IMG/VR virus record: IMGVR_UViG_3300047318_000425
Coordinates: 1-59,793 of that record
DNA: 59,793 bases
Source: a virus
Direction: 5' to 3' (one strand)
Below the pieces are notes generated by a model that worked only from the letters and a program-made list of their open reading frames with translations, made no database searches and was not told where the DNA came from. Below are positions 2,997 to 49,588 of this stretch, in pieces; position 1 is the first letter of the stretch, and every line of letters begins with the position of its first letter. Made by a program: the position numbers and the translations under genes.

Positions 2997-4553
2997 TTAT
3001 GGCAGCTCGTCGTCCGGGTCGGCGTCGCTGATGTTGAACGTTGGTGCAGGCGCTGGTGGCGGCGGCGGTGCCCGGTGCATCACTGGCGCCTTGGGTGCTG
3101 CGTTCTTCGCCGGTGGCAGCTTGGCGCGGATGTCGTGCCGGCTGTCGAGCCGCTTCTGCTCGAACGCCGCCTGCACTTCGGCGCTGGCAAATGCCGCTTC
3201 GATCTCCAAGGTCATGTCGCGCGCGATGGCGCCGAGCTTTTCGAAGCGGATCAGGTCGGGTTCGCGTGCATTCATCTCGCTGCCGATCAGCTTGATGAGG
3301 CGCTTATGCACCATCGTGCTGTAGCGGTATTGCATGTACAGCGGGATCGCGTCCCACGCCGCATCGTCGAGCACACTGGGGATCGCGTGCTTCAAGGCGT
3401 CGAGCACGTAGGCTTTTTCGGCTGCGTGCGCCAGCTGGTCCGCTTCGCTGCGCTCGTCATGGATCTGCGACCGGGAGGCCAGGATCGCGGGCAGCGCCGG
3501 GTTGTCTTCGCCCAGCAGGTCCAGCATGATGCGCGAATACACTTCGGCCATCTGTTGCTGGTTGGCGCTGCCGGACTGCAGTGCGGTGAGGATTTCGGTT
3601 TCGCGCATCACTGGCCAGCGTCCGTTGAACTGGGGCTGCGCGCGCTGATCGTACAGCAGCTGCGTGAAGACGCCGGCGAATGACGCCGCCTTGAACTCGG
3701 GCAGCACCACGAAGCCCTGCTCCTCGACCCGCGAATTCTGGTCGAACAGTGCGCGGTGCTGGTCGAACAGGTCGTCGTCGTCGACCTCCGGGCTGCGTGG
3801 CTGTCTGGCATTGATCAGCTCCCAGCGGATCGCGCTGATGACCGAGTAGCCGAGGCTGGCGCAGATGCCGTTGCGCGCCAGGAAGGCCGCGCCCGGTGCC
3901 AGTGGTTCGAGCTGGTCGATGTAGCGCATCGGGTTGCTCAGCAGGCGGCTCGGCGTGTGTGCTGGACCGTAGTGCGCGCCGTCGCCATCGAACCCGGTCA
4001 TGATCTGTTCGCTGTCCGTGTTCGCATCCTGGTTCAGCGCATCGGTGGTGGCGTCGCCGGCATGGGCAATGTATTCGGACGTAGCCAGTGCGTTGGCGAT
4101 GCGCTGTTCGTCGCTCCACAGCTTGTTGTCGCCGCGTTCGGCGCTGCGCAGTTCGAGCGCGCGTACCGCGTTGCCTTCGCGCACTTGCACGCTCCAGCGT
4201 TGTTCATGCTCGCTGCGCAGGTGGGCGCGTCGTTCCGGGCCGTCGTAGCGCAGCATGCTTGGCTTGTCAGGCAGTGGTTGTTTGTCGTGGAGTTCGATCT
4301 GGCTCATGCCGTCGCCGGTCAAAGGCGGCAAGCTGGCTGCGCCGTCGGCGGTGGTGTCGCCTGGGTGGGATTTGGTTTTCATGTTGTCCTCGGGTGGTTG
4401 GGATTGTTCCCGCGCGATCAGGATGTCGGGCGGGGTTTTCAGGTCAAGTCGCTGCGGGTCGAGCAGCAGGACTTCGGGGATGTCGCCATTGGCGTCACGT
4501 TGTGGTTCAGCGCTTTCGTTGTCGTCGGGTTGGTCGTCGAAATCGTCATGCAT
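2997..4553 (-). CDS. Hypothetical protein with proline-rich linker and acidic tail
   Basis: 518 residues with no family I recognise. The first 170 residues are charged and look disordered. The middle (about 200-450) is helical. The end has a proline/alanine-rich linker (PPPPPAPAP), then an acidic tail finishing DADPDDELP. A disordered linker plus acidic terminus is also the layout of ssDNA-binding proteins, but no OB-fold signature is visible, so this is only a resemblance. A GGAG box precedes the ATG. It is the last gene before the 19-bp-stem terminator. Confidence 0.8.
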   Translation of the reverse strand: MHDDFDDQPDDNESAEPQRDANGDIPEVLLLDPQRLDLKTPPDILIAREQSQPPEDNMKTKSHPGDTTADGAASLPPLTGDGMSQIELHDKQPLPDKPSMLRYDGPERRAHLRSEHEQRWSVQVREGNAVRALELRSAERGDNKLWSDEQRIANALATSEYIAHAGDATTDALNQDANTDSEQIMTGFDGDGAHYGPAHTPSRLLSNPMRYIDQLEPLAPGAAFLARNGICASLGYSVISAIRWELINARQPRSPEVDDDDLFDQHRALFDQNSRVEEQGFVVLPEFKAASFAGVFTQLLYDQRAQPQFNGRWPVMRETEILTALQSGSANQQQMAEVYSRIMLDLLGEDNPALPAILASRSQIHDERSEADQLAHAAEKAYVLDALKHAIPSVLDDAAWDAIPLYMQYRYSTMVHKRLIKLIGSEMNAREPDLIRFEKLGAIARDMTLEIEAAFASAEVQAAFEQKRLDSRHDIRAKLPPAKNAAPKAPVMHRAPPPPPAPAPTFNISDADPDDELP

Positions 4554-19149: not shown

Positions 19150-19572
19150 ATGGCCGATACCACCCTCAACACCAAGCCGATCTTCTCCAGCGTACCGGTG
19201 GTCGGCTTTTCGGGCCTGCTCAAGACGGCCAACACCAACATGGACGGCACCGGCACGGTACTGACCGCGTTCACCGCCGACGCCGCCAACGGTGGGCGCA
19301 TCGAGAAGCTGAAGGTGCGCGCGCTCGGCACCAACATCGCCACGGTGCTGCGCGTATTCATCAACAACGGCTCCGACCCCACGACCGCCACCAACAATGC
19401 GCTGTACAGCGAGATGACCTTGGCGGCCACCACTGCCAGCGCGACCACCGCGCTGGCCGACTCGGAGCTGGCGCTGAACCTGGCGCTGCCGGCGGGTTAC
19501 AAGATCAACGTCACGGTGGGTACGACGGTCGCGGCCGGCTTCCACGTGATCGGCGTCGGAGGGAAATACTGA
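19150..19572 (+). CDS. Hypothetical virion protein, 140 aa
   Basis: A beta-rich protein full of Thr, Ala and Asn, lacking charges, that fits a jelly-roll-like or fibre-base domain. It lies between the collagen-like and YadA-like fibre genes and its stop overlaps the next start. Not recognised by family. Confidence 0.65.
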   Translation: MADTTLNTKPIFSSVPVVGFSGLLKTANTNMDGTGTVLTAFTADAANGGRIEKLKVRALGTNIATVLRVFINNGSDPTTATNNALYSEMTLAATTASATTALADSELALNLALPAGYKINVTVGTTVAAGFHVIGVGGKY

Positions 19573-35000: not shown

Positions 35001-38000
35001 GACGAGAAAGCGCAGACCTGGGGCGAACTCAAGCAACGGCTGAAGGACGGCAACGCGACCCAGCAGGTGCGCGCCAGCCTGCACCCGCTGCGCGCCCAGC
35101 GCGATGCGCTGTTCGACAACCGCGCGCAGGCGCGCGAGAAGGTGCAGAACGACAACCCGGACGCCGACGCCAAGGAACTGCACGCGCTGATGAATGAGTC
35201 CGACGCGGCGTTCGCCAAGCCGCTCGCGGACATGAACAAGAAGATCGCCGCGCTGCGCGAAAAGCATGGCCTGATCGACAACAGCGAGCGGCTGCACAAC
35301 GAGCGGCTGGCCGAGGTCAATGGCCACCAGGACGCACTGGCGCGGCTGGCGGCGGCCAAGGACATCGACCAGGGCGAGCGCGCTGTCCAAGCCGCGCAGC
35401 TGGAAGAGAGCCACGCCGAGCGGCTGACCAAGCTCGACGCCAAGATCGACGACCTGACCAATTTCGAGATCGGCGGGCCGAAAACGCGCGCCGAGCAGAT
35501 CACCGCGCTGCGCGCCGCCACGGCCAGGGCAACCGCGGCGCTCGACACCATCTCGCCGGACGCCAGGGAACTGCTGCAGCGCAAAACGGCCCTGGCCGAG
35601 ATGCGCCGGGTGGCGGCGCAGGCGCTGGGCGGGCTCGACGACGAAGCCGGGCAGCCGGGGCGGCAGGACAACCCAAAGGCGAAGTGGCGCTACCAGGAGG
35701 ACGGCGACAACGCGCGCCCTGCAACGCAGCCACCACGCCAGGGCGACTTCGTACGCGACTTCGAGAAGGAAGCGCTGGGCCAGCGCGCCCAGGCCGCGTA
35801 CGATTTCGCCACCACGATGATGAAGAACGAGCGCGGCGCGCTGTCGATCCAGGACCGCGCCGCGATCAAGACCTTCGCCAAGCTGGAAAAGCGCCTGGAC
35901 GCCGCCCAGGCGCGCCTCGACCAGGGCGACCGCCCCGGCTCGGACCTGAAGGTCGAGCTGACCGGGCGCCAGCAAGTCGACGCCAACGACGCCAACATCA
36001 TCGAGGCGGCGGTCGAGCACTACAAGAAAGACAAACCGAACAACCTGGGCAACGTGTCGGCGGCGATGCGCCAGACCGCCGGCGAGTACACCGCCCCGGC
36101 GCGGCCGGGCGACGCGGCGCCGGTCACGCCCGACGCGCGCCGCGACACCTTGGCCAAGCTGGCCGACGACCTGGCCGCCAAGACCAACCCGGCCGCGCGC
36201 GCGGTCGGCGAAAAGCTGCGCCTGCTGATCGACAACCACGGCATTCTCAGCAAGGGCGACAAGGCGGTGCTGGGCGACCTGATCGGCGACGACGGCAAGA
36301 TGCGTTTGAAGAAGGTGTCCGAGTTGGCCCCAATCGTGGGCGGCATGGTCGAGCGGTACCAGCAACAACGCGGCTGGTCGACCGAAGGGGCGAATTCCTG
36401 GTCCAAGGTGGCCAGCGAAGGCGGCGGCCAGCACGTGGCGAACCTGAAGAACATCGACGCCGCCACCGACCCTAAATCGCTGCACACCAACCTGCTCGAA
36501 CTGCTGGCGATCAAGCACCCGAACCAGCATGCGCTCAAGGTGATCGACGCGACCAACGAACGGATCGGCATCCTGATGGCGGACGATCCGGCGGCCGCCT
36601 ACGCGATGCAGCTGAAAAGCCGGCAGGCCAGCGCCGCAGCCGAGGCCGCCGCCAAGCTGCCGACGCCGGCGCAGCAGGCCTTCATCGACCGCGCGGGCAA
36701 GGGCGGCGAATCGACCGATGCCGTCATCGCCGCGATCAGCAAGGACAGCAACACCGCCGCGCTGCAGCGCGCCCAGCGCACGCTGGCGATGGGCGACGCC
36801 AAGAACCCCGACGTCGCCAGGGTGGCCGCGGCGATCGCCGACCGGCTCGACACGCTGGACCTGCAGGGCGGGGAGGAGGCGCGCCAAGAATTGGCTTACG
36901 CGCTCAAGCACGACGAGGGGCCCACTTTTGGCCCCGGCGATGTGCTCGCATCGGGTGCCAAAGGCCCGCCGCTGGGCGAACGCATCAAGGGTGTCGATAG
37001 CACCAATCCCTACTTTTCCAAGGACATCGCCAAGGCCCAGGGCGCCGACAAGTTCATCGGGCGTGGCAGCGCGCGGTCGTCGACCGAGAAGTACCGCCAG
37101 GCCGCCGGCGGCCTGGCCAACACGGGCGTGTACGCGGCGGGCGAGCGGGTGTTCGTGTCGGTCGAAGGCAATCGGGGCGGGCGCATGGCGCTCGATACCA
37201 ACGAGGTGCAGAAGGCGCTCGACGCCGGCGCGACGATCATTGCCGACAGCAACGCCGACCGCGCGCGGCCCTACAACGTCGGCGAGCGCGAGCTGGCCGA
37301 CTACCTGGCCAAGAATGGCTACGAGGAAAAGGGCCAGGGTGTCTGGAAACCGGCCGACGACACCAAGTTCTCGCGCGAAAAGCAGGGCACCGGCACCTCG
37401 TCTGCCGCCGCCCAGGCCGGCGTGCACAACTACGTCAACAAGGTCACCGGGCGCGACGCGGCCGTCAACGCGGCCGCCAGCATGCTGTACGCGGGCTCGT
37501 ACCTCAAGGGCGGCAAGGACGCCGCCGGGGTCGACTACCGGCCCGCCATCAACGTGTCGGTGCATGCGCTCGACCCCTTGTCGACCGCCTACCACGAGTC
37601 GCTGCACTGGTTCGCCGACCACCTGCGCCAGCACGGCGACCCGGCCGTGTTCGCGGCACTGACCAAAGCGGCCGACTCGGCCTACGTGCGCAACTTCCTG
37701 CGCACCAAGTTCCGCGACCAGCCCGACGCCTTGAAGCAGGTCGACGGCAGCGCCGAGGAGCGGATCGCCTACATGTACCAGTTCCACAAGAACGGCGAGC
37801 TCAAGCTGGGCGACCGGGGCAAGACCATCCTCGACCACATCGCGGGATTCTTCGAGCGCGTGTTCGGCGTGTGGAGCAACGACGCCCGCGCGCTGCACAT
37901 CATGGACTACTTCGGCTCGGGCAAGTACGCCGACGCGATGGTCGGGCCCGACGTGAAGGGCAATGCGGCGATCGCGCACAAGGCGATGATGGAGGTGGGG

Positions 38001-40115
38001 CGCAACAAGGCGCTCGACCGCCTGCACGCACGCGTCAAACCGCTGCGCGAGGTGGCCGATGCGCTCGGTTCAATCGGCTCGGCGCGCATCCGCGACTACG
38101 GCATTCCGGCGCTGACAAAGATCGTCGACCTGACCCGCCTGCACGACACCAAGGAGGGGGTCGACCCCGGCTACCTGCCTGCCGCTGGCGTCGAGCGCCG
38201 CGCGCGCTCAATGGCGCTGGTCAAGGCGCTGGGCAAGTTCACGATGGAGCAGGCCGACGCGGCATTCGAGCGCATCGCGCTGGGCCACAAGGACGGCACC
38301 GACACCCACCAGACCGGCCTGATGGACGCGATGCGCCAGACGATGTTCAACATGCACGGCTACATGAAGGGCGCCGGCGTCGACATCGGCGAACGCGGCC
38401 TGAACACCAACTACACGCCGCGCGTGTGGAACCCGACCAAAGTGGCCGCGCGCCAGGACGCTTTCCGCACGATGATCCAGAAGTACATCGACAGCGGCCA
38501 GTTCAAGGGCACGGCCGACGACCTGATGAGCCGGCTGATGCGCGACGACGGCTCCGAGCTGCCGACCCCGCGCCCCGGCGACCAGCACGTCAAGGAGCGT
38601 TCGCTGCACTTCATCACGGCTGAAGATGCCCAGCCGTTCCTGGAAACCGATGCGCTGCGGATCCTGACCTCGTATATCGCCCAGGGCACCCGGCGCGCCG
38701 AATGGGCGCGCCGCTTCGAGGGCAAGAACGCGGACGGCGTGACCAAGCTCGACGAGCTGCGCACGGCCGCGGTCGAGCAGGGCGCCACGCCCGACCAGAT
38801 GAAGGTGCTCGACAATTACTTGCTGGGGGTGACCGGCCGGCTCGGCGCCGACATCAGCCCCGGCACGCGCAAGCTGTTTGGCCAGCTGCAGGTGTACCAG
38901 AACCTGCGCGTGCTGCCGCTGGGGTTCTTCTCGATGCTGATCGATCCGGGCGGCGTGAAGGTGCGCGGCGGCAGCTGGGGCGACGCATTCAACAACCTGA
39001 AGCGGGGCCTGCTGGAGATCCCGCGCGGCTTCCAGAAGGTCGAGAACCGCAAGAGCGACGCCGGCTACCAGTTCGCCGAGGACCTGGGCGTCATCGACGC
39101 GGCCGTGCTGCAGCACGTGCTGGGCGCCGCCTACGGGCTGGGCGGGCTGGGCGACACCGCGCGCACTGTCAACGAGGCGGTGTTCAAGTGGAACCTGATG
39201 GACCAGATGAACACGTCCCAAAGGGTCGGCGCGACCGAGGCGGCGATGCGCTTCCTGCTGCGCCACAAGGATGGCGACGCGTCCGAGCACTCGATGCGCT
39301 ACCTGTCCGAGCTGGGCATCAAGCCGGCCGACATCGAGCTGGCGCGCCAGGGCACGGGCCAGGGGGCGAAGCGAATCGGCGCGCCCCAGAAGGACGGGTT
39401 CGAGCGGATTCAGCGGGGCGAGCGCATCGCGGTGACCGAGCAGGACTTCCTCGACCTGGGTTACAACGCAAAACAGGCGCTGGCGGCGCACCTGCGGATG
39501 CGCCAGGCCGTCAATCGCTGGGTCGACGGCGCCGTGCTGCGGCCCGACCAGTCGAGCAAGGCGATCTGGATGAACGACCCGCTGTTCGCGCTGGTGGCGC
39601 ACATGAAGCAGTTCGCGTTCTCGTTCCAGGACACGGTGATCAAGCGCGTCATGCACGAAGCGCGTCATGGCAACTATGCGCCGGCCACCGCGCTGGCGTC
39701 CTACATCCCGATGATGCTGGCGGCCGACTTCGCCAAAGGCCTGGTCCAGGGTGGCGGCTCGCAGCCGAGCTGGAAGAAGGACTGGGACCTGACCGACTGG
39801 ATGGTCAACTCGACCCAGCGCGCCGGCCTGTTCGGCCAGAACCAGTTCGGCATCGACGCGTTCAAGGACATCCGCCGTGGCGGCACCGGCATCGGCGCGC
39901 TGGGCGGGCCGAGCGTGTCGCAGCTGACCGGGGTTATCTCGGCGGTGGGCGGGCGGCGCAGCATGCACTCGACCATCATCGATGCGCTGCCGGCCAACGC
40001 GCTGTGGAGTGGCTACATGGGCAAGACCGGCGGGTCGGCGGGTCGCAGCGACGGCCATCGCGGCGGCGAGACCACCGGCTTCGAGCCGCACGAAGTGGAC
40101 CGCGGGGATCCCTGA
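32064..40115 (+). CDS. Giant polyvalent internal virion protein with zincin motif
   Basis: 2683 residues, 13% of the window. Residues about 100-260 are Gly/Ala-rich hydrophobic segments; a long charged coiled-coil region follows. Residues about 1620-1790 form a conserved-looking domain (FIGRGSARSSTEKY...VFVSVEG...ARPYNVGERELADYL). Then comes a zinc-metallopeptidase signature HESLH at 1844-1848, with EER about 50 residues later as a possible third ligand. The C-terminal 650 residues are helical with hydrophobic stretches. This layout matches the polyvalent proteins of Bcep22-like phages and conjugative elements, thought to enter the cell with DNA and blunt host defences. Individual activities are inferred. 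Confidence 0.8.
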   Translation: MGILAEIDELYAKHGKAAPGQEDPGAPDAAGPFFPEPAFQRGLRAGGEDIAANLHGLAGQAGEVMGANDFAASQRAQARAGGLRAEQAVQGIPQTYREAQGAGGVWDYATGMLGRAGPTMGAGLVGAALGPPGWLGSIAGMTATTAPLMMGANFNEQQADPVQAAAPLLDRTVTGALAGTGEAAAMSVVPGVVGGKLFGKAAAQQAMPFLKAAAVNVPEAVLGNAAAGNVTARIGQAAASELNPGRDTSHDEQQQWDATTSGGILGAAFAPAGIAGSMRGAKVPKPSVGLGAALKTFEKEADSGIVDATAKEVGQGKKPGEAASEKAKPRAAASFDDQLAELTTPLQKPDLTTGREHADATITGDETVETMAAKDAAGNAAAQEKARARVDQLTGDPAAAHLHDELGGLDLASEDGQRRVSELGNRHTQVQEAKQTIAKAEAALDVDYTPFTEPGQSDSRDYSGVEAKIRAIMDEKFDARGQADTGAHADTIWPDFDEPTKQAATRVARKMITLGERTGKIPMLNEARAVFGTNNPEERLLRVYNVLRSSDPQARENFFGALERSQTRQKRDDGLAYAVYSALPTKQQGWVPRSQINEFVEGMKALSAEHLSKTMGANELKVAKTRIDDKLIDYFGAEQAEKLIAAFAKHAKESEELVPADVEENAKVKSVDETRSGRAADDYGHELSVTSDHVPTDDLGKPLYEGEAHKYYGRTPTAGNASPFELNNEAHRAAYPNAPDETRPQNVKTALAHKENPEFDQSGHPGGEVRWMGAREFADLHNMSREQLDAHTKGRPGDYGLAVVRTRSADEHALTSEDAEAMKFANHVKSVDKKTGEMTERHLKAPAHWFNTETKESLITVGQEEDALHFDATRIASYMKRVDGRGKGMKYTEADNDFGEQYRTARAFSEGISALSIKLRRDSDDAQLRGEVAAAKARGETLDEAQIEAMRRAIEQANDEKRGQFIDVPDDVVVVKAKGDEKAQTWGELKQRLKDGNATQQVRASLHPLRAQRDALFDNRAQAREKVQNDNPDADAKELHALMNESDAAFAKPLADMNKKIAALREKHGLIDNSERLHNERLAEVNGHQDALARLAAAKDIDQGERAVQAAQLEESHAERLTKLDAKIDDLTNFEIGGPKTRAEQITALRAATARATAALDTISPDARELLQRKTALAEMRRVAAQALGGLDDEAGQPGRQDNPKAKWRYQEDGDNARPATQPPRQGDFVRDFEKEALGQRAQAAYDFATTMMKNERGALSIQDRAAIKTFAKLEKRLDAAQARLDQGDRPGSDLKVELTGRQQVDANDANIIEAAVEHYKKDKPNNLGNVSAAMRQTAGEYTAPARPGDAAPVTPDARRDTLAKLADDLAAKTNPAARAVGEKLRLLIDNHGILSKGDKAVLGDLIGDDGKMRLKKVSELAPIVGGMVERYQQQRGWSTEGANSWSKVASEGGGQHVANLKNIDAATDPKSLHTNLLELLAIKHPNQHALKVIDATNERIGILMADDPAAAYAMQLKSRQASAAAEAAAKLPTPAQQAFIDRAGKGGESTDAVIAAISKDSNTAALQRAQRTLAMGDAKNPDVARVAAAIADRLDTLDLQGGEEARQELAYALKHDEGPTFGPGDVLASGAKGPPLGERIKGVDSTNPYFSKDIAKAQGADKFIGRGSARSSTEKYRQAAGGLANTGVYAAGERVFVSVEGNRGGRMALDTNEVQKALDAGATIIADSNADRARPYNVGERELADYLAKNGYEEKGQGVWKPADDTKFSREKQGTGTSSAAAQAGVHNYVNKVTGRDAAVNAAASMLYAGSYLKGGKDAAGVDYRPAINVSVHALDPLSTAYHESLHWFADHLRQHGDPAVFAALTKAADSAYVRNFLRTKFRDQPDALKQVDGSAEERIAYMYQFHKNGELKLGDRGKTILDHIAGFFERVFGVWSNDARALHIMDYFGSGKYADAMVGPDVKGNAAIAHKAMMEVGRNKALDRLHARVKPLREVADALGSIGSARIRDYGIPALTKIVDLTRLHDTKEGVDPGYLPAAGVERRARSMALVKALGKFTMEQADAAFERIALGHKDGTDTHQTGLMDAMRQTMFNMHGYMKGAGVDIGERGLNTNYTPRVWNPTKVAARQDAFRTMIQKYIDSGQFKGTADDLMSRLMRDDGSELPTPRPGDQHVKERSLHFITAEDAQPFLETDALRILTSYIAQGTRRAEWARRFEGKNADGVTKLDELRTAAVEQGATPDQMKVLDNYLLGVTGRLGADISPGTRKLFGQLQVYQNLRVLPLGFFSMLIDPGGVKVRGGSWGDAFNNLKRGLLEIPRGFQKVENRKSDAGYQFAEDLGVIDAAVLQHVLGAAYGLGGLGDTARTVNEAVFKWNLMDQMNTSQRVGATEAAMRFLLRHKDGDASEHSMRYLSELGIKPADIELARQGTGQGAKRIGAPQKDGFERIQRGERIAVTEQDFLDLGYNAKQALAAHLRMRQAVNRWVDGAVLRPDQSSKAIWMNDPLFALVAHMKQFAFSFQDTVIKRVMHEARHGNYAPATALASYIPMMLAADFAKGLVQGGGSQPSWKKDWDLTDWMVNSTQRAGLFGQNQFGIDAFKDIRRGGTGIGALGGPSVSQLTGVISAVGGRRSMHSTIIDALPANALWSGYMGKTGGSAGRSDGHRGGETTGFEPHEVDRGDP

Positions 40116-40186: not shown

Positions 40187-40486
40187 CTAACCGATGTTCT
40201 CTCCTGGCTCCGTGTCGCCGATGCGGTGCGTCGTCGAACCGACAAAGCCGACCGGCAAGGTGCCCGGAGGGATCGTGGACTCGACTTCCTGGGTACCAAG
40301 GAAACCGGAGGCCCGGCCTTTGCCATTGGTCGCCTTGATGAATTCAACTTCCATCTTGGCCGAGTTGACGATGACCTGGGACAGGTCGGCCACGGTGCGG
40401 GCCTTCTCCAGCGAGATGTCGCCGATGCGCACGCCCTCGATCATGTTAAACAGCACGGTGCGCAAATCGTCTACATTTTTATTCAT
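40187..40486 (-). CDS. Conserved small phage protein, 99 aa
   Basis: Begins MNKNVDDLRTVLFNMIEGVRIGDISLEKARTVADLSQVIVNSAKMEVEF. This helical pattern occurs in small proteins next to HNH genes in phages; I do not know a function. The second half is Gly/Thr/Pro-rich and probably disordered. Last gene of the leftward operon. Confidence 0.65.
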   Translation of the reverse strand: MNKNVDDLRTVLFNMIEGVRIGDISLEKARTVADLSQVIVNSAKMEVEFIKATNGKGRASGFLGTQEVESTIPPGTLPVGFVGSTTHRIGDTEPGENIG

Positions 40487-40519
40487 GTCTTGCTTTCATT
40501 GGTGGTGGTGGATAAAGTT

Positions 40520-41146
40520 TTAGGGGCGCGGTGGCTCACCAGCGTTCTCGATTTCTTCGCGCTGGGCGATGGTACGCACCAGCTTCGCCTTGAGGCGCAT
40601 CAGCGACGCCAGTTCCGGTGGCAGAGAGCTGATCGAGTGGCGCAACATCCACGCGACCTTGTCGACCAGCTCCAGGTTCTCGATCACTACGTTGGCGCGG
40701 TTGCCGTCCCTGAACGTCACCAGGTGCTCGGGCGGGATCGGGCCGTGGGCCTGCTCCCAGACCACATGGTGCAGCGGGCGCCAGCCTTGTGGCCAGCTGC
40801 CGAGGTCAAGCACCTTAATCCACGCGTAACCGAGCGAGCCGCTGGTAATGACTGTGCCCAGTGCTGCGCGCCGAGGGTTACGTTTGCCGGTCTGCGAGCG
40901 GTTGCCCAGCGCGGCCTGGTGGCCGGGGAGGAAGCGCTGGCCACGGTGGTCGCCGCCGGGAGGAATCCGCCCTGCGGCCGGGCTGGCCATGAATTCGGGC
41001 GTCTTGACCAGCTCCAGGCGCATCGCGCACTGGTACACGGATTCCACGCTGCGCCCCAGTTCGGCTGCCAAGGTTGCGGTGCTCTCGTGCGGATAGCGCG
41101 TGTGCATCAGCGTCAGGTCGTCGCAGGTCCAGCGGGGTTTCTTCAT
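40520..41146 (-). CDS. HNH endonuclease with N-terminal HTH
   Basis: 208 residues. The N-terminus (WTCDDLTLMHTRYPHESTATLAAELGRSVESVYQCAMRLEL) is a helix-turn-helix that would contact DNA. Residues about 124-162 carry the HNH core: HHVVWEQAHGPIPPEHLVTFRDGNRANVVIENLEL, with His-His, central Asn and a final Asn-Leu. These enzymes nick or cut phage or host DNA; it may be a homing enzyme or a replication or packaging nuclease. The start overlaps the upstream stop (ATGA). Confidence 0.85.
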   Translation of the reverse strand: MKKPRWTCDDLTLMHTRYPHESTATLAAELGRSVESVYQCAMRLELVKTPEFMASPAAGRIPPGGDHRGQRFLPGHQAALGNRSQTGKRNPRRAALGTVITSGSLGYAWIKVLDLGSWPQGWRPLHHVVWEQAHGPIPPEHLVTFRDGNRANVVIENLELVDKVAWMLRHSISSLPPELASLMRLKAKLVRTIAQREEIENAGEPPRP

Positions 41147-41388
41147 ACACGGCTCCTGGGTACTGGGCCGAACTGGAAATTCCAGCGGCGCTTGTGGTGA
41201 CCCCTGGCGATGTGCACCGAACGCATCTTGAATGGAACACGTCTCGGCCTGCCGTTGACCTTGCCGAAAAAGTGGCCCTCGCGCTGGTTCCTGCTGGTGG
41301 ACGACTTGATGCCGCGCAGGATCGCACGCGCCAGCACTTCCTCGGTGACGACCTCGTTGTGTCCTTCTCGCGCCTTGATCGTCGTCAT
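41143..41388 (-). CDS. Basic hypothetical protein, 81 aa
   Basis: ATG 41388 overlaps the upstream stop (ATGA), which decides it over a GTG at 41427. The product is strongly basic, with many Arg and His in the last 45 residues (RNQREGHFFGK...HHKRRWNFQFGPVPRSRV), so nucleic-acid contact is plausible. Not recognised. Confidence 0.7.
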   Translation of the reverse strand: MTTIKAREGHNEVVTEEVLARAILRGIKSSTSRNQREGHFFGKVNGRPRRVPFKMRSVHIARGHHKRRWNFQFGPVPRSRV

Positions 41389-41714
41389 GTTCGGCTGATC
41401 CTCGTCATCTGGTTGCAGTGCTGGCACTTGGTGCGCTCGCGTGCGGCCAGGCGCGCCAGTTCATCGTGATAGCGCGCGTGCAGGTCGTGGAAGCGTGTTT
41501 CCTGGCGCGCCAGCTGGACCAGCGCGAACATCGGATTGAGCTTTTCCTTGCAGTCGCGGCACTCGACTTGCTGCAGCTTGTCGTCGATGGTGAAACGGCG
41601 GTGGAAGCACTGGTAACCTGGTGCTTCAGTCAGCACGCGTTCGGTGCTGTTGTCGCGTGGCTTGACCGGCAGGGTCAGCACCGGTGCTGTTTCGGGCGGG
41701 ATTTCGATATGCAT
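41385..41714 (-). CDS. Zinc-ribbon-like conserved phage protein, 109 aa
   Basis: Starts MHIEIPPETAP. The core YQCFHRRFTIDDKLQQVECRDCKEKLNP and a C-terminal CQHC give two CxxC pairs plus Cys/His, enough for a zinc site. The LVQLARQETRFHDLHARYHDEL helix separates them. Similar small proteins occur widely in phage genomes without a proven role. AGGA lies upstream of ATG 41714. Confidence 0.7.
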   Translation of the reverse strand: MHIEIPPETAPVLTLPVKPRDNSTERVLTEAPGYQCFHRRFTIDDKLQQVECRDCKEKLNPMFALVQLARQETRFHDLHARYHDELARLAARERTKCQHCNQMTRISRT

Positions 41715-41719
41715 GTCGC

Positions 41720-41908
41720 TCAGTCCTGATCGTCGTAGTCGCGGCGCCAGTCGGCCTTGATGGGCCAGAAGTCGGGGCACGCCGGCCCCTCGTCAAACAA
41801 AACAAACGACTGCCGGTACGGGTTCGGTACAGTGCCGCTCGCTTCATTGCGGTAGCAGCTTGTACGCTGTGAACAGGTGCGACTGGCGCACATCGAAATG
41901 TCGGGCAT
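41720..41908 (-). CDS. Cys-rich small phage protein, 62 aa
   Basis: Read from MPDISMCASRTCSQRTSCYRN (ATG 41908); an ATG 12 bases upstream is also possible. The MPDISMC...C...CYR start is common in short phage proteins and suggests a small metal-binding unit. A PDFWPI motif lies near the end. First gene of the leftward operon that ends at 40187. Confidence 0.7.
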   Translation of the reverse strand: MPDISMCASRTCSQRTSCYRNEASGTVPNPYRQSFVLFDEGPACPDFWPIKADWRRDYDDQD

Positions 41909-41947
41909 TGTTTTTCTCATATCAAAAGCTTCGGGCGATAGGCTGCC

Positions 41948-41981
41948 AAAAAGCTAGGGGTGAACCCGAAAATAGCTTTTT
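41948..41981. other. Nested hairpin, possible two-way terminator or operator
   Basis: AAAAAGCTA (41948-41956) pairs with TAGCTTTTT (41973-41981); GGG-TGAA-CCC forms an inner stem. It lies 40 bases upstream of the leftward operon and has T-runs on both strands. Confidence 0.5.
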
Positions 41982-42226
41982 GATCAACCGTTACGGCGCA
42001 CTGTACAGCAAACACTCGTTATCGCGGATGCCCTTTTTACAGGTGGGCCAGGCCTCGCTCCCCTTGCGGGTCTCGTACGTTCTTGTTCCGCTTCCTCGGC
42101 GGCGGTGGTGCGCGCCCCGATGGTCCCCTAGCCAGATTACACCAGAGTGTTTGTCGATCCTTTTCTTCCAAGCGGCCGGACGGCCCGTTGCTGTCGCGTG
42201 GAGTGCGTTCGTGAAAGCTTGAGACG

Positions 42227-42355
42227 AAAAAAAACCGCTTTAGGCAGTCTTCTTCACGCTGTCACATGAACGCCAGGGCGGACACCAAGGCATGAAGACT
42301 GTCTAAAACGGTTTCCAGTAAAGTCCCGTTGTGACAGCAACGATTCCCTACCTGA
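42227..42355 (-). ncRNA. Candidate small RNA with own promoter and terminator
   Basis: Read leftward, a -35/-10 pair (see 42362-42390) would start an RNA near 42355. It has a first hairpin CGTTG/CAACG (42327-42342) with loop CTGTCA, then a long stem (42294-42314 with 42232-42252, 19 of 21 positions paired plus a G-T) that ends in eight U (42227-42234), i.e. an intrinsic terminator. The 41-base loop of that stem contains GTGACAGC (42258-42265 on the minus strand), complementary to the first hairpin loop, so a kissing-loop or pseudoknot can form. Length about 129 bases. No ORF is implied. I do not recognise a known RNA family. Confidence 0.6.
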
Positions 42356-42361
42356 GATCGT

Positions 42362-42390
42362 ATTATACGCAATATTTCCCATCGGCACAA
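42362..42390 (-). promoter_or_regulatory. Promoter of the candidate small RNA
   Basis: On the minus strand TTGTGC (42385-42390), 17 bases, then a perfect TATAAT (42362-42367). The spacing is ideal and the -10 is consensus; the -35 matches three of six. Confidence 0.6.
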
Positions 42391-42578
42391 GGATTATCTC
42401 GACCCTGGTCCTGCCAAGCCTGCCGTGCTGGCATGCATTCCCCAGGGGGACCCGCCGGGGCGCCGGGTTTTGCTTTAGCGGCGTGACCCCCGAAGAGGGG
42501 GTCATCCCCCGCCTCGTGGCGGCCATCAAGGCCGGCCACCCAGGGAGCATGCAAGGGAGCTGGTTCTGGGGTTGACCT

Positions 42579-42655
42579 ATGGGCGAAGCCCATCACTTAG
42601 GGGAATCTTTCCCTATGCGCTGCGCGCATCACTTGTTGCCTGTTTTTTAGGCAAC
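42579..42655. repeat. Array of four short palindromes, candidate par site or origin
   Basis: Within 77 bases: ATGGGC-GAA-GCCCAT (42579-42593), AGGGGAA-TC-TTTCCCT (42599-42614, one mismatch), ATGCGC-TGC-GCGCAT (42615-42629), GTTGCCT-N7-AGGCAAC (42635-42655). The first and third are followed by the same CATCACTT (42591 and 42627, 36 bases apart). It lies 107 bases upstream of the ParA operon, where centromere sites usually lie. Confidence 0.6.
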
Positions 42656-42761
42656 CCGGCCAAAAAAAAATTCGCCCTGCTCGCGCCTGGCTGTGTATGA
42701 TGGCGCCCGGTACGCATCCGCGTACCTCCTCCGATACACCGATACATATCCTCTTACCGAC

Positions 42762-42953
42762 ATGACATTCAACCTCGAACTCCAATGTACCAATGCCGCC
42801 TTTGGCAACACCGACGAGGAGCGCGCCTTAGAGATCGCGCGCATCCTCAAGATCGCCATGATCGCCGTGCGCGCCGCGCCGTCGATCGGCAACACGGCGG
42901 CGATCCTGCGCGACGCCAACGGCAACGTGGTCGGCTCCTGGAGGCTCGCATGA
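42762..42953 (+). CDS. Small protein leading the partition operon, 63 aa
   Basis: Starts MTFNLELQCTNAAFGNTDEERALEIARILKIA; a strand-helix-strand pattern ending in LRDANGNVVGSWRLA. There is no strong ribosome box. Its stop overlaps the ParA start (ATGA), so it belongs to that operon. Not recognised. Confidence 0.6.
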   Translation: MTFNLELQCTNAAFGNTDEERALEIARILKIAMIAVRAAPSIGNTAAILRDANGNVVGSWRLA

Positions 42954-43660
42954 TCTACCTCGTAGGCTCCTCGAAAGGGGGCGCCGGCAAGTCCACCGTG
43001 GCGGTGAACCTGGCCGCATTGCTCGCTTCGCAGCTTGAACGCGACGTGCTGCTGGTTGACACCGACAAGAAGCAACCGAGTTCGACCTTGTGGAACCGCC
43101 TGCGCGGCGGTGCCGACGTCGCGCAGCTGTCGTCGATGATCATCGAAGCGGCCGACATCGTGCGCGAAGTCAAACGCCAGGCCCGCAAATACGACGACGT
43201 GGTGATCGACGCCGGCGGCCACGACTCGGCCGAGCTGCGCGCCGCGCTGTTAGTCGCCGACGTGGTCCTGATGCCGGCTGCGCCCGCGCTGTTCGATGTC
43301 GCAGCGCTCACCACCGACTGCGCGCTGCTGAACGTGGCGCATAACTTCAATCCGCACCTGAAGGCGTTCCTGGTCATCAATAATGCTTCGACCAACCACC
43401 AGGAGACCGGCACGCGCGACATGCGCGAGCAGCTGCCCAACCTGGTGCCCAACTACGTGGTGTTAGATTCGGTGCTGCGCCGCCGCGCCGCGTATGACGC
43501 CTGCAAGCAATCCGGCCTGGGCGTGGTCGAAGTGAGCAATGCGGCGAATGCGTCGTCGGCCACCGAGATGCGCAACGTGTTTAATGAACTGATCAAGAGG
43601 GTGTCAGGGGCCGAGATGACCGCCGTGTTCAACGTACTGCTCAAGGGGACAAACCCATGA
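42950..43660 (+). CDS. parA: ParA-type partition ATPase
   Basis: 236 residues. The deviant Walker A motif KGGAGKS at residues 9-15 has the signature lysine. VLLVDTDKK (motif A') and DDVVIDAGGHDS (Walker B region) follow. No N-terminal DNA-binding domain is present, so it is the short class seen with ribbon-helix-helix partners (type Ib, ParF/ParG-like). It would move or position phage DNA on the nucleoid and keep it stable as a plasmid-like element. The small DNA-binding proteins encoded directly downstream are its likely partners. The start overlaps the previous stop. Confidence 0.9.
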   Translation: MIYLVGSSKGGAGKSTVAVNLAALLASQLERDVLLVDTDKKQPSSTLWNRLRGGADVAQLSSMIIEAADIVREVKRQARKYDDVVIDAGGHDSAELRAALLVADVVLMPAAPALFDVAALTTDCALLNVAHNFNPHLKAFLVINNASTNHQETGTRDMREQLPNLVPNYVVLDSVLRRRAAYDACKQSGLGVVEVSNAANASSATEMRNVFNELIKRVSGAEMTAVFNVLLKGTNP

Positions 43661-43878
43661 ACGGCGCGGTGCAGGCGCGTCTGCGCTTCATCGACACCAT
43701 GCTCGAACACTACGGGTCGGTTGGCCGCGCGATCATCATGGATTACTTCGGCATGGGAGGGGCCAGCGCGTCGCGTGACTTGGCGCTGTATAACAAACTA
43801 GCCCCCCACAACATGGTGTTCGACAACAGCTCGAAGCTGTACTTGCGCGGCCCGAACTTCGAAAGGAAATTTCCATGA
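43657..43878 (+). CDS. Small winged-helix-like DNA-binding protein
   Basis: 73 residues: RLRFIDTMLEHYGSVGRAIIMDYFGMGGASASRDLALYNKLAPHNMVFD. The SASRDLALYNKLAP helix and preceding turn match the N-terminal winged HTH of WYL-type regulators, here without a WYL domain. Overlaps parA and the next gene by 4 bases each. It could regulate the operon or bind the centromere. Confidence 0.7.
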   Translation: MNGAVQARLRFIDTMLEHYGSVGRAIIMDYFGMGGASASRDLALYNKLAPHNMVFDNSSKLYLRGPNFERKFP

Positions 43879-44135
43879 CTAAGAAACCGAATAAATTCGC
43901 CGCCCTCACGTCCGAGGCTTTCGTGCTGGCCGCCCCGGAAAACGCGGGGGGCCGCAAGCCGCCGCCGTCCGATTCGCGCCTGACCGCCAACATCAACCGC
44001 GAGCTGCACCTGCGCCTGAAGCTGTACGCGGCGAAGAACTACACGTCGATGGGCGAGCTGATCGAAGAATGGATCGAGCAGCACATTCCGCAGGAGCCGG
44101 CGGCGCGGCCATCAACGTCGCGGGACAAGGCGTAG
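43875..44135 (+). CDS. Ribbon-helix-helix-like centromere-binding candidate
   Basis: 86 residues. A disordered, basic N-terminus is followed by RLTANINRELHLRLKLYAAKNYTSMGELIEEWIEQHI, a strand-helix-helix typical of ParG/CopG/Arc-type proteins. Together with the short ParA it makes a type Ib partition cassette. It is also one of the candidates for the factor that binds the dispersed palindromes. It ends against the stop of the convergent gene with no gap. Confidence 0.7.
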   Translation: MTKKPNKFAALTSEAFVLAAPENAGGRKPPPSDSRLTANINRELHLRLKLYAAKNYTSMGELIEEWIEQHIPQEPAARPSTSRDKA

Positions 44136-49534: not shown

Positions 49535-49588
49535 CGATCTATCTTAGATCGAGTTACGAATCGTAGGCCAAAGAACAGCGCCGGTCAA
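49535..49588 (-). promoter_or_regulatory. Best promoter-operator pair of the window
   Basis: On the minus strand TTGACC (49583-49588), exactly 17 bases, TACGAT (49560-49565). The perfect palindrome CGATCTA-TCT-TAGATCG (49535-49551) follows and covers the expected start of transcription. The arrangement is that of a repressed sigma-70 promoter. Confidence 0.75.

Follow-up and report, generated by a model that had tools for sequence, protein, structure and literature searches.

A free-standing noncoding RNA of approximately 126-132 nt is likely encoded on the minus strand beside the partition operon of a tailed phage genome, and we tentatively assign it, with somewhat less than even confidence, to a module for replication and maintenance of a plasmid state. 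The whole virus record IMGVR_UViG_3300047318_000425 (59.8 kb) was analyzed at the sequence level and is referred to as the window. The RNA gene is considered likely because a promoter and a long stem followed by U8 are combined on one strand, 130 nt apart. A structured element between the RNA promoter and the parA operon, termed R2, stands on firmer evidence than the RNA itself, and in our assessment these surroundings weigh more than the RNA. Features of the locus are listed in Table 1.

Table 1. Features of the RNA locus and its neighborhood, with positions in the window.
Feature	Position	Strand	Description
-35 element TTGTGC	42385..42390	-	read from sequence
-10 element TATAAT	42362..42367	-	17-nt spacer to -35; read from sequence
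Hairpin 1, CGTTG-CTGTCA-CAACG	42327..42342	-	5-6 bp, one extra U.G pair; loop has UGUC
Long imperfect stem	42230..42316	-	23 pairs and 2 mismatches, three-way junction on top
Side hairpin UCAUGU-GACA-GCGUGA	42254..42269	-	GACA tetraloop; one of two small hairpins atop the stem
U8 tail of intrinsic terminator	42227..42234	-	only on minus strand
GACAGCAACG, 10-nt complement of hairpin 1 (CGTTGCTGTC)	42186..42195	-	beyond terminator, same strand
R2	42444..42542	+	four-way junction and subsequent hairpin, loop motif GCTTTAGCGG; 7 copies, covariation
Two palindromes CCTATGSGC-n-GCSCATCACTT	42576..42634	+	36 bp apart; paired in G001 and G476 too
par operon	42717..44135	+	78-aa protein, ParA (42953-43660), 73-aa protein (43657-43878), ribbon-helix-helix protein (43875-44135)
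Minus-strand operon, first genes	41385..41920	-	66 aa and 105 aa; operon runs to ~40187
HNH endonuclease	40520-41146	-	within minus-strand operon

A probable compact RNA gene with its own promoter and terminator

An earlier note on this DNA, made from the letters alone, described a minus-strand TATAAT separated by 17 bases from TTGTGC, and both elements can be read directly at 42390-42362. With a simple sigma-70 matrix, this pair is the rank 1 promoter-like site of the window on both strands (score 10.9), placing the predicted start of the RNA at approximately 42359-42353. The best promoter scores in shuffled windows range from 9.2 to 12.3, so that the RNA promoter is within the chance range; because shuffled windows score as high, it counts only jointly with the terminator 130 nt downstream. 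No plus-strand promoter-like site scoring above 5.3 was found upstream of or inside the RNA element. Elsewhere in the window, a strong second promoter-like site, TTGACC-17-TACGAT at 49565 (-), is identical at 43109 (-) in the related phage contig G001 and is probably a conserved promoter.

The structural elements named in the earlier note were also recovered. The 5-bp hairpin with loop CTGTCA gains one U.G pair, and the 21-position stem with two imperfect pairs (arms 42314-42294 and 42232-42252, 90% complementary) is extended by G.U and A.U pairs to 23 pairs, with U8 at its foot as described. The predicted RNA fold has a minimum free energy of -56.2 kcal/mol (z = -4.9), and none of 200 shuffles was as stable. 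Stems of at least 18 pairs before T6 were absent from 60 shuffled windows; a further 40 yielded one 20-pair stem and none with 23. Taken together, at least 18 pairs were reached in 1 of 100 shuffled windows and 23 pairs in none. The strongest stem-plus-U-tract of the window sits 130 nt from its top promoter-like site, on the same strand. Open reading frames overlapping the RNA matched no protein family, in keeping with a noncoding transcript.

These comparisons make it very unlikely that the arrangement is inert, with a promoter-like site that happens to lie near a terminator whose sole function is to keep the par and minus-strand operons insulated from each other. Equally good promoter-like sites do occur in shuffled windows and the RNA element is not conserved, as would be expected of a chance arrangement, but no shuffle yields such a stem, whose length greatly exceeds what insulation needs, and promoter and terminator stand in the right order and at the right distance.

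At the DNA level, hairpin 1 is a 16-bp palindrome at about +14 to +29 and could possibly serve as an operator. Three GACAGC sites might likewise be bound by a protein; their genome-wide counts are ordinary.

Loop complements within and beyond the RNA

Hairpin 1 and the side loop of the terminator hold an exact 9-nt complement (GCTGTCACA / TGTGACAGC), in which the GACA tetraloop of the side hairpin and its flanks pair with the UGUC region of hairpin 1. The large loop to which the earlier note assigned this complementarity is a three-way junction, because the complement proves to be the GACA tetraloop of the side hairpin in the predicted fold; the complementarity itself is real and, at 9 nt, one longer. 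Kissing complements of at least 9 nt were seen in 30 of 5000 shuffles (0.6%), which makes the kissing loop statistically marginal.

A second complement of hairpin 1, GACAGCAACG, was overlooked in the earlier note. This 10-nt match is found in 17 of 3000 shuffled leaders, and the pairing is part of the fold predicted for the read-through leader. Its significance is modest: the duplex ranks 94th of 11952 windows genome-wide and is not outstanding there, and the site does not coincide with a recognized ribosome-binding site. Both the 9-nt and the 10-nt complements are therefore regarded as suggestive only.

The downstream complement bears on the main rival explanation, which we consider possible although on balance unlikely, namely that the RNA is the attenuated leader of the minus-strand operon (41920-40187). 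The promoter would drive this operon, most transcripts would stop at U8, and the short RNA would be the released leader. Hairpin 1 would pair with the terminator side loop or, in the read-through RNA, with GACAGCAACG 40 nt downstream, and the released RNA may act in trans on the leader, as c4-like phage immunity RNAs do. Promoter, terminator and operon indeed follow one another in that order on one strand, the 10-nt complement is rare in shuffled leaders, and a precedent is provided by the c4 RNA of P1/P7, in which loop-borne complements act on mRNA (PMC12197685). The ordinary genome-wide rank of the duplex and the lack of a c4 match in Rfam argue against a leader, as does a candidate promoter of the operon itself at 41926 (score 9.0), from which transcription would start just before the second ATG of the gene.

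A different role that we regard as clearly improbable is that of a small RNA acting in trans during infection by pairing with mRNAs of the host or with other mRNAs of the phage; U8 would be a handle for Hfq or ProQ and the proximity to par would be incidental. The size, the free promoter and the terminator with U8 fit this class, of which phage examples are known (PMC12197685), and a lack of conservation in relatives would be unsurprising for it. A duplex scan of the phage, however, gave only unspecific matches and identified no target.

Searches for relatives of the RNA

Rfam searches at gathering and relaxed thresholds returned no match for the RNA; RNAI, CopA and c4 were all absent from the results. 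Phages and plasmids showed no DNA similarity to the RNA region, and viral contigs contained no exact match to the patterns of hairpin 1 or the stem arms. When 1.7 Mb of sequence from relatives was searched along with 0.24 Mb covering other loci with parA or R2, a covariance model built from the single sequence matched only itself. The earlier note had proposed a free-standing regulatory RNA, perhaps for copy number or entry into the carrier state, and had pointed to kissing loops as typical of plasmid copy-control and other antisense RNAs. A free-standing RNA is supported by the compact unit with its own promoter and terminator; a plasmid antisense RNA like RNAI of ColE1 is unsupported, because neither a promoter-like site for an overlapping plus-strand RNA nor a match to the RNAI or CopA families was found.

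The RNA was not found in G001 or in the parA-bearing contig G476, although both hold the rest of the module. In G001 another hairpin takes its place, and T10 follows this hairpin on the opposite strand. A search for a reverse-strand promoter-terminator unit ahead of other parA genes gave no consistent pattern. Long stem-plus-U elements in the relatives G052 and G033/G034/G029 were considered as homologs and rejected, as they lie in other places or overlap genes and show no sequence relation. The element in G033 (L330 4862-4963, with the same sequence in G034 and G029) is a hairpin followed by 22-25 consecutive T that overlaps the start of an HNH-like open reading frame; it may represent a slippery tract, or else a terminator whose U tract is extreme.

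Genome organization and related phages

The phage belongs to a group distantly related to Pseudomonas phage KPP25 (terminase 45%). A 2683-aa gene closes the virion genes at 40115 and is followed by minus-strand genes reaching 41920, the RNA, a gene-free stretch of approximately 330 nt, and the plus-strand operon with ParA and a ribbon-helix-helix protein. The GC content of the RNA locus is 47%, vs 65% for the window. Among the window genes scanned (part of the open reading frames), no integrase or RepA-like protein was found. Just 5' of the first gene of the minus-strand operon, at 41947-41982, there is a perfect 10-bp inverted repeat (CAAAAAGCTA/TAGCTTTTTG) that overlaps the -35 region of the promoter-like site at 41926.

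For comparison, approximately 75 related-phage contigs were gathered via capsid or polymerase. A close homolog of ParA (67%) was present only in G001 (terminase 91%), and G476 carries a homolog (54%) of the 73-aa gene at 43657. The compared contigs are metagenomic, and G001 and G476 are single relatives. A pair consisting of a small protein and an HNH endonuclease lies before the par module in the window (40187-41146) and after it in G001 (38117-38440), as if either the module or the pair had moved. Phage BgManors32 has one small gene in common with the window and does not have the RNA/par locus.

A covarying structured element and paired palindromes next to the RNA

Compensatory changes mark the region immediately past the RNA promoter (42444-42640), which G001 has in conserved form. 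The first part of this region is R2, of which seven copies were collected: window 42444-42542 (+), L080 15121-15217, L378 4001-4100 and 1832-1734, L406 5853-5953, L407 272-173, and L408 1858-1757. They reside in the window, G001, G476, two filamentous phages (inoviruses) and, twice, a Massilia plasmid. Searches with blastn against plasmids revealed the two intergenic copies of the Massilia putida plasmid, and a model built from these and the window copy recovered G001 at 72.9 bits; some 30 relatives without this parA gave no match. A pattern scan combined with the model added three more. The first (L406, 108 bits) is in a 6.6-kb inovirus with 91-bp end repeats, coat protein B, Zot and G2P, where R2 is located approximately 100 nt upstream of the replication gene. 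The second (L407, 88 bits) stands alongside Zot, secretin and a G2P-like gene, and the third (G476/L408, 71 bits) is on a contig with a ParA gene and the homolog of the window gene at 43657. A weak partial match (26 bits) was also seen upstream of repB in plasmid pHB2a.

Across the seven copies, double changes occur in 12 of 28 pairs, with at least one in every helix, and 99% of pair cells are standard. None of 500 shuffles matched this covariation, and slid structures collapse. The seven-copy alignment was fitted to the model, which favors the structure; a model-free alignment of three sequences gives the same picture. Coding was considered as another source of the conservation, since a 77-aa minus-strand open reading frame shares GHAAKA with G001, and was rejected because the frame is not preserved, no protein family was matched and the covariation accounts for the conservation.

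All copies of R2 that were found lie in mobile replicons, some of them with a single-stranded DNA stage, and the folded strand is the coding (virion) strand in both inoviruses. No Rfam family corresponds to R2 at gathering or relaxed thresholds. In shallow searches, neither the model, with 10 candidates scored per genome, nor an exact-pattern scan detected R2 in 399 Burkholderiales genomes; the Massilia copies only hint at a Massilia-like host for the phage. Given a conserved hairpin structure of the kind expected for single-strand initiation (ssi) sites, R2 is likely a single-strand initiation or complementary-strand origin element, at which priming would take place.

The paired palindromes directly follow R2 in the window, in G001 (35248-35309) and in G476 (19032-18971), with a spacing of 36-39 bp, and do not occur elsewhere in the window. 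They are candidate partition or operator sites. R2 and parA co-occur in the window, G001 and G476. A further hairpin, CCGATTTGC..GCAAACCG, precedes R2 in G001 (~35010-35052, with T10 after it), in pHB2a (L409) at 4281 and in G476 at 19247. It is missing from the window, where the RNA stands instead.

Thus, hairpin DNA fills the region, as R2, the paired palindromes and the CCGATTTGC hairpin illustrate, and the long inverted repeat could be one more hairpin of a single-strand origin module, folded in single-stranded DNA or bound by protein, with hairpin 1 as an operator palindrome. We think this highly improbable: an origin hairpin needs neither a U8 tract that is confined to one strand and placed at the stem base nor a consensus promoter directed into the element.

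A possible role in a plasmid state

The location beside the partition operon, pointed out in the earlier note, is borne out by surroundings that resemble a plasmid-type replication and partition module, with a ParA operon, two palindromes and a covarying origin-like element. We tentatively favor a plasmid-state RNA because the predicted layout is that of parABS mycobacteriophages that lack RepA. A host-type sigma-70 promoter (42390-42362) would produce an RNA consisting of a 5' hairpin, the long terminator hairpin and U8. Together with the R2 single-strand-initiation-like element, the paired palindromes and the parA operon, the RNA gene would constitute one module. The RNA would be made mainly while the phage genome persists as an extrachromosomal, partitioned element, and would set or permit replication in this state, like the parA-proximal reverse RNAs of RedRock/Alma-type phages. 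The loops GCUGUCAC and GUGACAGC may serve dimer formation or target recognition.

The position of the ParA operon after the virion genes and the orientation of the RNA, in reverse to parA as in Alma and LadyBird, support the plasmid-state reading, together with the absence of integrase and RepA-like proteins from the genes scanned, the restriction of the R2 copies found to mobile replicons, and the co-occurrence of R2 with parA. Counting against it are the relatives G001 and G476, which have the rest of the module without a detectable RNA, the lack of a plus-strand promoter for a pair of the RNAI/RNAII type, and the lytic lifestyle of named distant relatives (KPP25-like). Plasmid-like persistence is not known in KPP25-like tailed phages, and a carrier state in the group is our inference.

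A more far-reaching version, which we hold to be speculative and rather unlikely, is that 42227-42640 and the par operon form a mobile origin-and-partition cassette, in which R2 would be an undescribed ssi element and the adjacent RNA an exchangeable, replicon-specific control RNA. The way in which this tailed phage group, lytic in appearance, persists as a partitioned plasmid would then be set by the control RNA.

If the plasmid-state reading is true, RNA-controlled plasmid states would extend from mycobacteriophages to the KPP25-like tailed phage group, and the carrier state could be tested with a segment of approximately 2 kb. R2 would then represent a new family of structured DNA/RNA that connects plasmids with both tailed and filamentous phages, and would mark replicons passing through single-stranded DNA.

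Comparison with known systems

Like RNA I of ColE1, the window RNA is about 110-130 nt long, has possible kissing loops and lies beside plasmid-maintenance genes. Unlike RNA I, it has no Rfam match and no opposite-strand primer promoter, and the complement is inside the same RNA. The c4 antisense RNA of P1/P7 is similar in being a short phage RNA upstream of a possible same-strand target with a loop-borne complement (10 nt here); the window RNA differs in its own terminator, as well as in the missing family match. The c4 RNA is cut from a longer transcript.

With ssi/Frpo sites and the complementary-strand origins of inoviruses, R2 shares a cluster of hairpins on plasmids or in filamentous-phage intergenic DNA, near a replication gene, although it has no Rfam sequence family. 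Sites of this general kind are found on various plasmids (PMC7690428).

The closest layout is that of parABS mycobacteriophages without RepA, where a noncoding RNA that starts directly before parA and is transcribed in the opposite direction is seen by RNA-seq (PMC7157519). In Alma/LadyBird-type prophages, the RNA region reading away from parA is needed for extrachromosomal maintenance, its deletion resulting in unstable lysogens, and the "ori" segments suffice for autonomous plasmid replication (PMC7157519). The deleted transcribed region in these phages is approximately 400-500 nt, whereas the window unit is compact, at about 130 nt, and ends in a strong terminator. They also have other hosts and belong to another phage group. 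The likeness is one of layout: as in RedRock, Alma, LadyBird, Gladiator and Et2Brutus, an RNA gene is located directly upstream of parA and is transcribed away from it (transcription here being predicted), in a central region after the virion genes and without a recognized integrase or RepA in the part of the window's open reading frames that was scanned.
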